Part shown: piece by piece, positions 7,058 through 20,424 of the stretch | How the letters are laid out: every line of letters begins with the position of its first letter | Position numbering within the stretch: the stretch's first letter is position 1 | Origin: a virus | Virus record (IMG/VR): IMGVR_UViG_3300025818_000228 | Coordinates: 1 to 21,679 of that record | Reading direction: 5' to 3' (one strand) | Length of the DNA stretch: 21,679 bases | Program-made: the position numbers and the translations under genes | Notes under the pieces: model-generated | Told to the model about the DNA's origin: nothing | Database searches by the model: none | The model's input: only the letters and a program-made list of their open reading frames with translations

Positions 7058-7738
7058 ATGGCTAGAGGAATGATGAGACGACCTCCAACAGGAGGAGGAC
7101 TAACAGAGCTAACACCGAGGCAACAGCGCCGACAGCAATACCTTGAAAGAAGAGGTAGGCAGTTTAGACCAGGCGGCCAAGTGCAAGCTCAGCCAACAGA
7201 GATGCCAGAGCTTACCGCAAGGCAACAGCGCCGACAGCAGTACCTAGCTAGAAGAGATGCAAGACAGCAAAGAGGCGTAGAGGATTACAGAGCGCAACAA
7301 GCAGCGCAACAAGCAGGGCAACAGCTCGGAGGGTTCCCTGGGCTTCCGTCAACGCCAGGAGGTTTCCAGCCGTATCCGCTCCAATTAAGTCCAGAGCAGA
7401 TTGCTATGTTCAGGGATAGACTCGGCCAAGGTATCCCTTTTAATCCTAACACAGTAGACATGACCCCTAATTTAGGACAACTCCCTACTGATTTAGCTGG
7501 TGGTATGGGGCAAGGACTAGGTAATTTACCTAACGGTATGCCAGCTCCAACTTATGGAGTTCCTAGCGGTATGGCCGGTGGTTATAACCCAGGGCAAGCT
7601 TTAGGCGGTATGGCTGGAGGGTATAACCCAGGGCAAGCTTTAGGCGGTGTAGCTGGAGGGTACGATCCTGCTCAAACATTAGGCGGTGCAGTAGGTGGTT
7701 TTAATCCAATAGCTAGAGGAATCAGAAAGCTTTTCTAA
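7058..7738 (+). CDS. Repeat-containing Gln/Arg/Gly-rich virion protein
   Basis: A 226-residue protein immediately downstream of the previous gene (GGAG ribosome site near 7047). The N-terminal half is basic and carries two near-identical copies of LTxRQQRRQQYLxRR (about residues 21-35 and 53-67). The C-terminal half is Pro/Gly/Asn-rich and ends with four 13-residue repeats of the type GMAGGYNPGQALG (171 to about 221). No enzymatic motif, signal peptide or clear membrane span is present. Its place between an ejection protein and the tail nozzle gene suggests a virion component, perhaps packaged with the ejection proteins and DNA because of its positive charge. I do not recognise a family; repeat-rich proteins like this vary quickly between related phages. 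Confidence 0.7.
   Translation: MARGMMRRPPTGGGLTELTPRQQRRQQYLERRGRQFRPGGQVQAQPTEMPELTARQQRRQQYLARRDARQQRGVEDYRAQQAAQQAGQQLGGFPGLPSTPGGFQPYPLQLSPEQIAMFRDRLGQGIPFNPNTVDMTPNLGQLPTDLAGGMGQGLGNLPNGMPAPTYGVPSGMAGGYNPGQALGGMAGGYNPGQALGGVAGGYDPAQTLGGAVGGFNPIARGIRKLF
7118..7248 (+). repeat. Direct repeat encoding RQQRRQQYL twice
   Basis: The stretch coding for Arg-Gln-Gln-Arg-Arg-Gln-Gln-Tyr-Leu occurs at about 7118-7155 and again at about 7211-7248. The first 20 bases (AGGCAACAGCGCCGACAGCA) are identical in both copies. The two are 93 bases apart, within the same gene and in the same reading frame. Confidence 0.85.
7568..7723 (+). repeat. Four tandem 39-bp coding repeats
   Basis: Units begin at 7568, 7607, 7646 and 7685. 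The first two encode the same 13 residues (GMAGGYNPGQALG), the third has Val, Asp, Ala and Thr substitutions, and the fourth is the most diverged (GAVGGFNP...). The decay toward the 3' end suggests recent duplication at the 5' side and makes length variation between relatives likely. Confidence 0.9.
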
Positions 7739-15109: not shown

Positions 15110-15335
15110 TATAGATAAGTTTCAGTATTGGTTTGATATTGTGGTAAAGGGCGCTATAGGCGGTCTTATTGCTTTAATGGGCTGGGATTATCGCGGTGTT
15201 AAGTCTCATTTAGAAGACCTCCAGCAAGCCAGGTATCACGTTCAAAGCGACGTTTCTGTAGTACAAACGGAGCTAAGGTACATTAAACAACAAGTAGATA
15301 AGATTGATTCTAAGATAGATAAACTAGTTAAGTGA
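15102..15335 (+). CDS. Small membrane protein with C-terminal coiled coil (lysis-associated)
   Basis: A 77-residue protein with one likely membrane segment (about 11-29, FDIVVKGAIGGLIALMGWDY) followed by a helical coiled coil (about 33-76) with heptad-like spacing of Val, Leu and Ile (VQTELRYIKQQVDKIDSKIDKLV). The layout resembles XhlA-like or holin-accessory proteins, except that the membrane segment is N-terminal. It overlaps the previous gene by 8 bases and the next by 4 (GTGA). The position between the DUF5675 protein and a secreted protein in a cassette ending in a holin-like gene supports a role in lysis timing or envelope disruption. An alternative is an inner-membrane spanin-like component. 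Confidence 0.72.
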   Translation: MADIDKFQYWFDIVVKGAIGGLIALMGWDYRGVKSHLEDLQQARYHVQSDVSVVQTELRYIKQQVDKIDSKIDKLVK

Positions 15336-16153
15336 GATGGTTTTTTTTACTACTACTGCTCCCCAGGTTAGCCGACGCCGATGCGGGGTTGTCATATCTT
15401 GGGTTGTGCTCACCGGAGTGGAATTGCAAGGCAACGATTAAAAGCTTTGATAGTGTAGATACCATTTACACTGGCTGGCTTGAGAATACGTTTGCAAAAG
15501 GTTGTAGGTGCGGTGAGAGGTTATTGAGACAAGAAAAGCCGGTAGTGCTTAGAGTACATTTAACCAACTCTCCTTGCCTCAGGAACGGAAGATGCGGTAG
15601 TTATGAGGTGTTCGCTGGTGAGACTGTAAAGACAGCCAGCAGAAAGATTGTTAAAAGAAATAGGCGATTACTAACTAAGTATAGAAGGGTAGTAAAGCGC
15701 TTTAAGAGGAGGTTAGACAATGCCACAGCGCCGGTATCTTGCTACGTTAGTCCGTGTTTGGAATGTGATTTGTCAGGAGCCGCTCGGCGCTTGTTGCATA
15801 ATTATACAGCTCGGTTACTTCCTAATTGTGCTTTGGTTGATAGCGTTTATCGTCGGCGGTGTCTAAAGAATACAATCTGCGAGAAACACGGTTCTACTCC
15901 TAGTTTTAAGGATGATAACTGCATAGCAGACCTAGACGGAGAAGACGGTAGAGTAACTAACCTAGCGGTTTTTAAGGATTATACTAAGCAATGCTTATTT
16001 AGGCATTACTGGGAGCCGATGTATAACTGTATCAGAAGGGGTTATTTTGTAGACCCAAGGAAAAGAGACTGTAAGTATAGTAGCAGGGAGATTATTAAGA
16101 AAGGAGGAGTGTTATGTCACTTATCATTCAATCAATCGTGCGACACGTTATAA
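15332..16153 (+). CDS. Secreted cysteine-rich protein, unknown function
   Basis: A 273-residue protein starting with GTG 15332, overlapping the preceding stop by 4 bases. A signal peptide is clear: MRW, then FFLLLLLP, then an Ala-Asp-Ala cleavage region near residue 16-18. The mature part has 18 Cys (for example 26, 32, 58, 60, 82, 88, 137, 142, 145, 166, 177, 183, 197, 221, 233 and 247), suggesting a disulfide-rich periplasmic protein. Conspicuous motifs are HLTNSPCLRNGRCG (76-89), CYVSPCLE (137-144), CEKHG (183-187), DLDGEDG (200-206) and WEPMYNC (227-233). The spaced strand-like motifs with E144, E184 and E228 could suit a TIM-barrel glycoside hydrolase, but that is speculation. A run of eight T at 15341-15348 encodes the signal core and is a possible slippage site. 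Confidence 0.75.
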   Translation: MRWFFLLLLLPRLADADAGLSYLGLCSPEWNCKATIKSFDSVDTIYTGWLENTFAKGCRCGERLLRQEKPVVLRVHLTNSPCLRNGRCGSYEVFAGETVKTASRKIVKRNRRLLTKYRRVVKRFKRRLDNATAPVSCYVSPCLECDLSGAARRLLHNYTARLLPNCALVDSVYRRRCLKNTICEKHGSTPSFKDDNCIADLDGEDGRVTNLAVFKDYTKQCLFRHYWEPMYNCIRRGYFVDPRKRDCKYSSREIIKKGGVLCHLSFNQSCDTL

Positions 16154-16847: not shown

Positions 16848-17217
16848 TTTTAAGATACTTATCTAAGGTTTCTAGAGCTTCTTGACCGCTCCAGCAGACA
16901 CAAGCGTAGTAGCCGTTTAGGTTTAACTGCTTTAGTACCTGATGCTGGTCAGGGCTTACTCGATTGGGCTTTACTTTCATCTCAATAAAAAGACCGTTGT
17001 ATTTTTCGTTTGCTACTGGGATGAAAATATCCGGCATCCCTTTAAGCAAGCCAGCTCTCTTTAGCGCTACTCTTCTTGCTATACTGCTTTTACTCTCGTT
17101 AGGTATATGACAAGCTACAGAAAGCTCGGGGCGCTTATTTACAAGCCAGCGCAAGCCGTCAAAGAATATAACCTGCTCCTGATGCTCTCTTCCTGGCTTG
17201 TATTTACGTTTTAGCAT
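16837..17217 (-). CDS. VRR-NUC domain nuclease
   Basis: A 126-residue protein with the compact layout of stand-alone VRR-NUC nucleases of phages: E14 in the first helix (EHQEQ), H37-IPNE, an Arg-rich stretch, then LLKGMPDI with catalytic D63, GLFIEMK with E79 and K81, and S-PDQHQ (Gln conserved). This family belongs to the PD-(D/E)XK superfamily and is linked to cutting branched or Holliday-like DNA. The predicted role is processing recombination or replication intermediates, in keeping with Bet and the PC4-like protein nearby. The ribosome site GAAGAGGGG lies just upstream of ATG 17217. All core residues are present, so it is probably active. Confidence 0.88.
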   Translation of the reverse strand: MLKRKYKPGREHQEQVIFFDGLRWLVNKRPELSVACHIPNESKSSIARRVALKRAGLLKGMPDIFIPVANEKYNGLFIEMKVKPNRVSPDQHQVLKQLNLNGYYACVCWSGQEALETLDKYLKNEI

Positions 17218-17295
17218 ACCCCTCTTCTACTCCGTCGGTGTTATCGGTTAAGTAGGGGCTAAATATCTTAATTTTAAGTGGGGGAATGTTTGCGT

Positions 17296-17460
17296 TCATT
17301 TGCGATACCTTGATCGTGATTTAATTCCAGAAATTGTCCTGCACCATGATGGTTTTGCCCGCATAAAGCAAATTGCAGATCCTTCTCTAGCCCAATAAAG
17401 GGATCGCCACTTGAAAAAAGATTTTGACCAACACCTAGTATTATCCAATAACCTTATCAT
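17296..17460 (-). CDS. Possible mini-ORF 3 of the reiterated segment
   Basis: A 54-codon open frame whose ATG directly follows the stop of the previous mini-ORF (TAG then ATG). The peptide starts MIRLLDN and is rich in Ser, Arg, Trp and Lys (GIKSRSRYRK at the end). An alternative frame on the same strand is also open and reads as a more ordinary protein (containing GQNHHGAGQFLELN), ending at about 17277, but has no clear start. It is not certain that either is translated. Listed because it is the third of three abutting units sharing a start sequence (ATGAT). Confidence 0.3.
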   Translation of the reverse strand: MIRLLDNTRCWSKSFFKWRSLYWAREGSAICFMRAKPSWCRTISGIKSRSRYRK

Positions 17461-17667
17461 CTACTCACCATAATAAGACCTAGAACCAGACTCAGACCTA
17501 GACTGATACAGGTGCCTAGACCTAGAGGAAAACCAAGAACAAATCGTCGACCAAAACCAAACCCTAGATTGCGACTGAACCCGTGAGCAAAACCACGGCG
17601 CTGACCCAGACCAAAACCATGAACCATACCAAGAAAAATTTTTGAAAACGCTAATTGCTTTAATCAT
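17461..17667 (-). CDS. Possible mini-ORF 2, Ser/Trp/Arg-rich low complexity
   Basis: A 68-residue open frame beginning directly after the stop of mini-ORF 1 (TAA then ATG). Its start ATGATTAA is identical to that of mini-ORF 1, and its end TATGGTGA-GTAG resembles that ORF's end. The product is almost wholly Ser, Arg, Trp, Phe and Gly (SRSRH, SESGSRSYYG near the end). Another frame of the same strand over this segment reads Gly-Leu/Gly-Phe repeats with a hydrophobic end (LGLSLVLGLIMV). The composition reflects the underlying hexamer repeat, so translation is uncertain. Confidence 0.35.
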   Translation of the reverse strand: MIKAISVFKNFSWYGSWFWSGSAPWFCSRVQSQSRVWFWSTICSWFSSRSRHLYQSRSESGSRSYYGE

Positions 17668-17706
17668 TTAATCACCATACCTAGACCAAGACCCAGACCT
17701 AGACCC
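17478..17706. repeat. Degenerate AGACCT-type hexamer repeat
   Basis: Plus-strand units related to CCTAGA / CCAAGA / CCCAGA occur in phase at 17680-17706 (about four and a half units) and at about 17478-17527, with looser copies (CCAAAACC, CCCAGACC) between 17530 and 17630. The left flanks of both dense blocks also match: TCATCTACTCACCATA at about 17457-17472 and TCATTTAATCACCATA at about 17664-17679. This indicates duplication of a larger unit of about 50 bp rather than simple slippage alone. Confidence 0.75.
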
Positions 17707-17733
17707 AATAGTATATGCAGGTAACTTAATCAT
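17668..17733 (-). CDS. Possible mini-ORF 1 (21 codons), coupled to upstream gene
   Basis: A 21-codon frame, MIKLPAYTI followed by a Gly-Ser-Arg low-complexity stretch and YGD. Its ATG overlaps the stop of the upstream leftward gene as ATGA (17730-17733), a typical coupling junction, which is the main reason to consider it real. In many phages short Gly-Ser repeat proteins occupy a similar place (from memory, unverified). Here the repeat is very short and interrupted, so it may be a decayed gene. Confidence 0.35.
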   Translation of the reverse strand: MIKLPAYTIGSRSGSWSRYGD

Positions 17734-18041
17734 TTAGTTTCTCTTGGCAGTTCATGTTTCCAATAATATGCGTCAACAATCGAATCGGTATTTACAACCA
17801 CATCGACCGTTACGGCTTCTACTTCCGATAGCGAGCCAGTTTCGATGCACTCACCAAAACGACCAGTGTCAGCAATCCAAGCGGCCTCATTTAACACGAC
17901 AAACTTACCCTTAATTGCTTTTACCCGACCGGTCACGGCAAAGGTTACCGTCCGAATTAGCCATGTTTGACCCACCTCGAACGGCAATTCTACTGCTGAA
18001 TTACCGAATAACTCTTTCATGTCTTTTAATGTTATTTCCAT
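17730..18041 (-). CDS. Conserved phage protein with AWIADTGRF motif
   Basis: A 103-residue protein with a strong ribosome site (AAAGGAG 7 bases before the ATG). The middle carries TWLIRTVTFAVTGRVKAIKGKFVVLNEAAWIADTGRF, then GSLSEVEAV and, near the end, a VDAYYWKHELP segment. I remember this as a widespread but uncharacterised small phage protein in which AWIADTGRF and a final 'w-H-LP' are the most conserved parts; no function is known to me. It is predicted to be a cytosolic small beta-barrel-like protein without a membrane segment. Its stop overlaps the start of the low-complexity mini-ORF (ATGA). The upstream neighbour is the PD-(D/E)XK-like gene, 10 bases away. Confidence 0.8.
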   Translation of the reverse strand: MEITLKDMKELFGNSAVELPFEVGQTWLIRTVTFAVTGRVKAIKGKFVVLNEAAWIADTGRFGECIETGSLSEVEAVTVDVVVNTDSIVDAYYWKHELPRETK

Positions 18042-19584: not shown

Positions 19585-20424
19585 TTAGATATTTGGAAAG
19601 TCCATATCTATAGACTCAAAAGGGATTTCAGCTCGAGCTACTTTCTTTAGCTTAATTGGAGACTCCCAGATACCTGTTTGTATCTCTTTTGCTTTACATG
19701 TTTCTAAGTAAGCAATTACAGCCGGTCTTTGATTATCTTCAAAGATAGTTACATCGTAATAAGCTTTCATCTCCTCTAATGCTTTTTTCTTACTCTTCTT
19801 AGCTGGCTTCTCTTCCTTAGCATCCCAGTTAGGCAGGTCATCTTCTGCTAGAGTAATTGGCTTAGCTGGCTCCTCTTTTACCTCTTCAACTACCTCCACT
19901 GAGGGCTGAAAATTAGAAGGCATTTCTTCTTGAGTGTACAAGCCGTTTAGCTCCTGAGGGAAAGCTTTCCGTAGGGCTATAGACTCGGCTACCTTCTTAA
20001 TCATAATTCTAGGAGCAGTTTTCCACAGCCCAAAACCCTTAGCGTAATCAGCCAGTAGAGCTTCTCCTTCCATTGGGATTCGGCGGTCTTTTCTATACAC
20101 TTTACACCATGCACCAATGAATGAGTTATCAGGAACAGTTTTTACCCATTCGCCAGAAGCGTTTATCAACCCTACTTCTGCTCCGTCAAAGTCCTTACTA
20201 GCATTAGCAATAGCCCAAAAGCCGTTAATGCCGGTCATAATTTGCAGACCCTGATTGGCTTTGATGCACCAGATTTCCTTCTTAAACGGATTTAAGCCAG
20301 TGGCTTTACAGTACTGCACAAACAGCGCAAACTCCGAAGCTGTCGTTCCTTTCGCTACCGTAGCTTGCATGGTTTTTACTATCTCAGCCGAGCTATAATC
20401 TATTGTTTGTAGTTCTTTTGTCAT
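19585..20424 (-). CDS. bet: ssDNA-annealing recombinase, Bet/RecT (Red-beta) family
   Basis: A 279-residue protein. The N-terminal 160 residues show the Bet signature: ASEFALFVQYCKATGLNPF, KKEIWCIK, GLQIMTGINGFWAIANAS, FDGAEVGL, and then MIKKVAESIALRKAFPQELNGLYTQEEM, the conserved end of the core. A Lys/Glu/Pro-rich linker (about 170-218) connects to a C-terminal segment (about 219-279) that may bind SSB or another partner. The protein anneals complementary single strands in phage recombination and replication-fork repair. The matching 5'-3' exonuclease was not found in this window and may lie to the right. The ribosome site AAAGGAG lies 10 bases before ATG 20424. The PC4-like protein with an SSB-like tail in the adjacent operon is a plausible partner. 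Confidence 0.93.
   Translation of the reverse strand: MTKELQTIDYSSAEIVKTMQATVAKGTTASEFALFVQYCKATGLNPFKKEIWCIKANQGLQIMTGINGFWAIANASKDFDGAEVGLINASGEWVKTVPDNSFIGAWCKVYRKDRRIPMEGEALLADYAKGFGLWKTAPRIMIKKVAESIALRKAFPQELNGLYTQEEMPSNFQPSVEVVEEVKEEPAKPITLAEDDLPNWDAKEEKPAKKSKKKALEEMKAYYDVTIFEDNQRPAVIAYLETCKAKEIQTGIWESPIKLKKVARAEIPFESIDMDFPNI

Follow-up and report, generated by a model that had tools for sequence, protein, structure and literature searches.

Some Sm and LSm proteins combine an Sm core with a disordered low-complexity segment, as in the RG tails of SmB, D1 and D3, the C-terminal tail of LSm4 and the disordered C-terminal domain of Hfq. By analogy, these tails appear to be the closest functional parallel to the phage repeat protein described here, which resembles the eukaryotic ones in being Arg-rich, but in the phages a gene of its own, coupled to the Sm-like one, encodes the segment, which follows a strict (W/R/G)-Ser period of two with Trp as frequent as Gly and RGG absent, the array being rebuilt by hexamer expansion. 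A small Sm-fold protein in a phage has a counterpart in PDB 3BY7, a putative cyanophage Sm-like protein of known structure that is not known to have a repeat partner; PDB sequence searches gave no chain matching the alignment of our family 1 (A1) at E values up to 1 or that of family 2 (A2) at E values up to 10.

The array itself recalls three other kinds of sequence. Eukaryotic RS, RGG and FUS-type sticker-and-spacer regions likewise have Arg and aromatic residues spaced by Gly and Ser with composition mattering over order, whereas the phage array carries Ser at alternate residues and belongs to a phage gene with no demonstrated homology to these regions; the array protein could not be placed in any known family. 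C9orf72-type repeats are, by analogy only, also a hexanucleotide read as a dipeptide repeat, with the phage array differing in its single selected frame, its leader with a start codon and its hypervariable first base. The targets of diversity-generating retroelements similarly have one variable codon position per unit amid fixed neighbours, but in the array the variable base does not look as if derived from adenine (A makes up 7% of it in TCG and 30% in AGC arrays), and the phage repeats are tandem; no reverse transcriptase was recognised by eye in the ORF list of the window.

The window, by which the whole analysed stretch is meant, is a single 21,679-base virus record. Reading of its ORFs confirmed the coordinates of three abutting minus-strand frames with zero spacing, each starting with ATGAT (Table 1), and the proposed ATGA coupling, the start of ORF 1 overlapping the stop of the upstream AWIADTGRF gene. 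The duplicated stop/start junctions described in the first-pass annotation are present as TATGGTGA-TTAA and TATGGTGA-GTAG and encode a common C-terminus, YG[DE]*. The degenerate hexamer on which the segment was said to be built is real though eroded, with best-phase matches to NGGTCT of 62, 62 and 47% in ORFs 1, 2 and 3 against 39, 35 and 30% in dinucleotide shuffles, none of 500 shuffles reaching the observed value for any of the three and no other segment of the window equalling ORF 2. Tandem Repeats Finder detected nothing at the locus beyond the best-kept stretch in ORF 1. The conserved reading is (W/R/G)-Ser, and the Gly-Leu repeats on the minus strand and Pro-Arg repeats on the plus strand that had been noted earlier are out-of-frame shadows of it. 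The description as a Gly-Ser repeat stands for the alternating Ser but fails for Gly as the only partner, since Trp and Arg equal Gly in frequency. In related phages the sequence here is neither missing nor unrelated, and the relatives carry an array downstream of the AWIADTGRF gene; the earlier suggestion that the segment is the decayed form of a genuine cassette not characterised before is right. ORF 1 lies directly 3′ of the Sm-like gene on the same strand, with the leader and the alternate-Ser W/R/G array being recognisable in eroded form. At the window locus the gene found downstream of a predicted Sm-like gene is present as eroded tandem copies.

Table 1. Features of the repeat locus, in positions of the window.
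Feature	Position	Strand	Description
Predicted Sm-like (LSm-fold) gene, family 1 (AWIADTGRF)	17730..18041	-	103 aa; from AlphaFold2 model, Foldseek, VIA-align and relatives
Repeat ORF 1	17668..17733	-	21 residues; MIK leader + GSRSGSWSR + YGD; ATGA overlap with Sm-like stop; MIKLPAYTIGSRSGSWSRYGD*
Best-kept hexamer stretch, (GGTCTN)n, in ORF 1	17675..17707	-	Tandem Repeats Finder, period 6 and 12
Repeat ORF 2	17461..17667	-	68 aa; starts with a MIK leader, continues as an eroded (W/R/G)S array and ends in YGE; MIKAISVFKNFSWYGSWFWSGSAPWFCSRVQSQSRVWFWSTICSWFSSRSRHLYQSRSESGSRSYYGE*
Repeat ORF 3	17296..17460	-	54 aa; MIR leader, W/R/K/S-rich, most eroded copy; MIRLLDNTRCWSKSFFKWRSLYWAREGSAICFMRAKPSWCRTISGIKSRSRYRK*
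Next gene downstream, truncated	17204..17299	-	MNANIPPLKIKIFSPYLTDNTDGVEEGYAKT*; not part of the pair; 3′ boundary of the module

The upstream gene encodes a small protein of predicted Sm/LSm fold. Reading upstream of arrays in other phages revealed a second family of such genes, with the consensus EGLxxLLGxxVTLFCxNYIYTGKLVGVN...IVYETG in A2. Comparison of the two families by hhalign shows them to be homologous (probability 94.9, E 4.7e-8). AlphaFold2 gave mean confidences (pLDDT) of 87 for family 1 and 93.6 for family 2, the predicted structures of both containing a five-stranded Sm barrel with an N-terminal helix. All 50 PDB matches listed by Foldseek for each family were Sm, LSm or SmAP proteins or complexes containing them, while the best VIA-align match had a Z of 8.9 (rmsd 2.1, 65 aligned) for family 1 and 10.6 (rmsd 2.2, 68 aligned) for family 2. 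A Z of 8.9 would alone be middling, but the assignment is good because Sm proteins fill the list and family 2 scores higher. In the Sm1 motif the G-x-L-x-x-V spacing is kept in A1 and A2, with the Sm1 Asp and the RNA-contacting Met-Asn positions being conserved in the columns of neither alignment. The Sm2 Arg-Gly appears as GRGSI in part of family 1, as NTDSI in the window and not at all in family 2. As the Sm1 Asn is not conserved and the Sm2 Arg-Gly only partly so, the claim made here is limited to an Sm-like fold rather than a canonical Sm protein or Sm-like RNA binding, and binding of RNA by the predicted protein is not assured. A1 had no significant match in Pfam, NCBIfam or PHROGs and A2 none in Pfam or PHROGs.

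Pairing of the two genes was seen from both sides. A search of viral contigs with the AWIADTGRF protein gave 30 loci, and an alignment-based scan gave 137 relatives, 80 of which were kept. For family 1, 78 of 89 loci have a same-strand NGG-Ser array ORF no more than 1.2 kb downstream, typically of the form MNAAVMRAGFDMSGSGSRSGSGSGSGSWSRLWSGS... or MNQAVLRIGYEWPLRSWSRSWSWSWSWSRSRSRSGSWS..., with the 11 loci lacking a tract being contig edges, eroded forms of the window clade, or the approximately seven with enough sequence and a different downstream region, where no array was found. For family 2, scanned with a single protein as the query, 35 of 38 non-redundant loci have an array by the automatic test and 37 by eye. 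From the array side, a scan of viral contigs gave 165 non-redundant arrays containing W, R and G, 33 of them at contig edges. The Sm-like gene lies upstream on the same strand in 110 of the 132 non-edge mixed arrays, with a median of 44 nt separating its stop from the array; it is on the opposite strand in none of the 165, and in six cases it lies only downstream of the array. Counted by contig, 91 of 106 non-edge contigs pair an array with the Sm-like gene, leaving about 15 with a mixed array in which the Sm-like gene was not detected.

Among monotone arrays an Sm-like gene lies upstream in only 9 of 92; these arrays, of the (RS)n, (WS)n or (GS)n type and picked up in pattern scans, mostly look like unrelated simple repeats and were set aside. 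Control loci fetched by their VRR-NUC gene (151 kb) contained neither Sm-like genes nor arrays, and no fused Sm-plus-repeat ORF was found among the loci searched. Four related long phage contigs share the leader MIKKSIYKRNI, with a family-2 gene located upstream of the array in two (L403, L404) and another 112-aa ORF lying in between in the others (L189, L216). The constant association suggests that the repeat protein probably acts together with the Sm-like protein.

The second gene, in many cases coupled in translation to the first, consists of a short leader followed by (Trp/Arg/Gly)-Ser dipeptides, mostly 10-40 units, encoded by NGG-TCx or NGG-AGY hexamers, and typically specifies 40-90 residues. 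In 245 array ORFs downstream of Sm-like genes Ser occupies the alternate position in 89% of units and its partner is Arg (33%), Trp (28%) or Gly (28%), and complete array ORFs have a median length of 68 aa and a median net charge of +10, with the protein presumably being low-complexity and disordered. The leader type goes with the Sm-like family, those of family 1 being mostly M(N/T)(A/Q)AxLRxG(F/Y/L)(D/E) (MNAAxLRxGFD-like) and those of family 2 basic and MxRxxKQK(Y/W)-like, for example MRGLKQKYR and MRRSIKQKW. The W:G:R proportions are 0.33/0.28/0.39 in TCG arrays, 0.33/0.34/0.34 in TCT arrays and 0.33/0.29/0.37 in AGC arrays; these near-thirds persist although Arg is mostly CGG in TCG arrays and AGG in AGC arrays. 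W, R and G follow one another in random order (observed/expected 0.95-1.07). The Arg codon depends on the Ser codon, AGG being rare in TCG arrays (7%) and CGG in AGC arrays (7%). In five loci (L055, L092, L114, L129 and L031) some of the Ser has given way to Thr, Ala or Gly, or of the Arg to Lys, such that the hexamer is lost while the character of the peptide is kept.

Across the family the repeat ORF is almost certainly protein-coding and under selection. Of 100 coupled (ATGA-like) starts, 94 lead into the (W/R/G)-Ser frame (p = 1.5e-37) despite widely varying leader length, and the first open ATG does so in 139 of 147 (p = 8.6e-56); these p-values and those below treat units or loci as independent, which they are not entirely, but the effects are large nevertheless. 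Among units with intact neighbours on both sides, TGG has changed to TAG or TGA in none against 912 intact TGG, while the equivalent G-to-A change in other NGG codons occurs 67 times against 1962 intact (p = 1.7e-11). Within arrays Glu is found less often than Gln and Lys combined (p = 0.0019). Strict residue-by-residue purifying selection was not seen, with single-deviation pN/pS being 1.8 in TCN arrays and 0.47 in AGY arrays. The Ser codon depends on the phage, being TCG, TCT, TCA, TCC, AGC or AGT, and on an Sm tree built from 168 distinct proteins, the resolution of which is poor, the two codon families were exchanged (TCN/AGY) at least 31 times, at least seven of these being forced by well-supported branches. 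The sisters L054 (TCA) and L089 (AGC), for instance, differ in Ser codon and have similar leaders.

Within a single array the Ser codon has a median entropy of 0, as against 1.53 bits for the first base of the partner codon, where changes alter the amino acid. Block duplications were detected in 42 of 162 arrays, and paralogous array ORFs stand in tandem, several together, at many loci (L123, L138, L167, L173 and MW202825 among them). We read this as frequent re-expansion of the array, by which synonymous sites are homogenised while selection holds the W/R/G mixture. Arrays lengthen, shrink and are rebuilt fast, with selection keeping composition, positive charge and the open frame rather than the order of residues.

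The neighbourhood of the pair is typically one of DNA metabolism, with RecT, Erf and Sak4 annealing proteins, RecE/YqaJ and Cas4-type exonucleases, Gp157, a DUF669 SSB-like protein and DNA methylases being common neighbours, and a member of one of eight recombination-type families was present in the flanks retrieved for at least 43 of 215 loci. This context is suggestive only, because RecT-type matches also fall in the control loci. In the window a RecT gene is found at 19585-20424. The intact relative of the truncated downstream gene in L007 is 201 aa long and matches phrog_3704 ('ferredoxin'), while the window copy leads directly into the VRR-NUC gene, an arrangement suggestive of deletion or recombination. 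Elsewhere in the window, a 273-aa Cys-rich ORF without a family match (15332-16153, plus strand) has a similar relative in L007 and other loci of the clade, and a 39-base tandem repeat of GGYNPGQALGGMA units (7566-7688, plus strand) lies inside a Gly/Pro/Gln-rich ORF (7058-7738).

The first-pass annotation had raised the possibility that constraint acts on the DNA or RNA rather than on the protein. In that case the repeat could be a site of recombination, replication or packaging, or a structured part of the mRNA, and the ORF would be incidental. The occurrence of GG every 6 nt with both types of Ser codon, the homogeneity of arrays within one phage at synonymous sites and the recombination genes among the neighbours would be consistent with this. 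However, the hexamer itself is not conserved, GGTCG, GGTCT, GGTCA, GGTCC, GGAGC and GGAGT all being seen, the most changed of array positions 2-6 is the first G of the GG, the arrays are free of stops with start frame and leader conserved, and the Arg fraction stays constant though CGG and AGG swap, all of which makes an element of this kind improbable. We give similarly little credence to the variants in which GG every six bases forms two-tier G-quadruplexes, an idea to which the deviation rates lend no support, or serves as a binding site for the Sm-like protein. The variability of the array could alternatively point to a decoy or counter-defence protein, with hosts recognising or being inhibited by particular W/R/G variants. 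The most variable array position is indeed nonsynonymous and turnover is fast, with tandem paralogues being frequent, but the near-equal thirds and random order fit a constraint on composition better than selection for particular sequences and the constant pairing with the Sm-like gene would be left unexplained, so that such a role seems unlikely.

The cationic Trp-rich composition and leader-plus-core look of the protein bring to mind a membrane-active or modified peptide, either a Trp/Arg-rich antimicrobial or a leader with a W-x-R cross-linked core as in darobactin, and the sole literature match for such letter strings was a darobactin paper. Such a peptide is highly improbable, as the partner gene is Sm-like rather than a maturase gene, none of the latter was noticed in the genes commonly found nearby and the repeat gene sits among genes of DNA metabolism. 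Neutral decay of the repeat in this window, after the gene had become dispensable, is a further alternative. The window clade (with L002 and L004-L008) has MIK-type leaders and TCT arrays, the arrays being well preserved in L004 and L007 and eroded in the window, L002 and L005. That the window copies match the hexamer so poorly, in an eroded form common to the window and L002, would be expected from decay, and the differences from L002 are too few for dN/dS (one synonymous and one nonsynonymous codon in ORF 2; two synonymous codons and one changed residue in ORF 3, which is conserved in L002). Against this, all 13 ORFs of the closest clade are open and most terminate in YG[EDRK] or something close to it, the probability that random drift would leave them free of stops being 0.009 for ORF 2, 0.054 for ORF 3 and 0.025-0.53 for other clade ORFs in a test that is biased because ORFs are defined by stops. 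The stop depletion across the whole family also argues against neutral decay, which we consider somewhat unlikely.

The proposal preferred here sees in the locus a worn and triplicated form of a phage module of two genes, comprising an Sm-like protein and a coupled, disordered partner that condenses nucleic acid, a reading of the whole for which we judge the case evenly balanced. We infer that the leader of the repeat protein most likely docks on the Sm-like protein, itself probably a ring, with Arg and Trp 'stickers' on a Gly/Ser background then binding nucleic acid and each other. In this way phage RNA or single-stranded DNA would be concentrated early in infection. A nucleic-acid-binding or condensing role for the tail is put forward tentatively, as slightly less than an even bet. 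We would lean a little against, while still taking seriously, the full scheme in which the Sm-like protein and a separate hypervariable tail protein form a nucleic-acid condensate, with the tail being rebuilt by hexamer expansion and its composition held.

The pair constitutes widespread phage gene families, so far unnamed and without an entry in the family libraries searched, with both linked families being present in at least 150 uncultured phage contigs. Among GenBank phages a DNA search with the region gave no match, and tblastn found only MW202573 and MW202825, phages from a spring-water metagenome that both carry the pair. None was found in the plasmids searched, and among bacterial and archaeal genomes there were four MAG contigs only, all with arrays; no description of such a gene pair was found within open-licence papers. 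Twelve contigs (L009, L011, L017, L023, L025, L028, L066, L069, L072, L102, L106 and L111) end inside or just before the array, and 27 of 215 loci end less than 300 nt 3′ of the Sm-like gene compared with 14 on the 5′ side. The arrays seem prone to interrupt assembly, and catalogues may lack them for this reason; the lack of a family-library entry is probably due to this tendency together with masking of the repeats as low complexity.

The evolution of the array is unusual in that a synonymous Ser position is frozen while the position that changes the amino acid varies. Trp, Gly and Arg being held near equal thirds whichever codons are used amounts to a natural experiment in which selection acts on composition but not on order. 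Should the proposal hold, the pair would be a minimal two-part Sm-like/low-complexity assembly made by phages, and composition-driven condensation would become testable in a small bacterial system.
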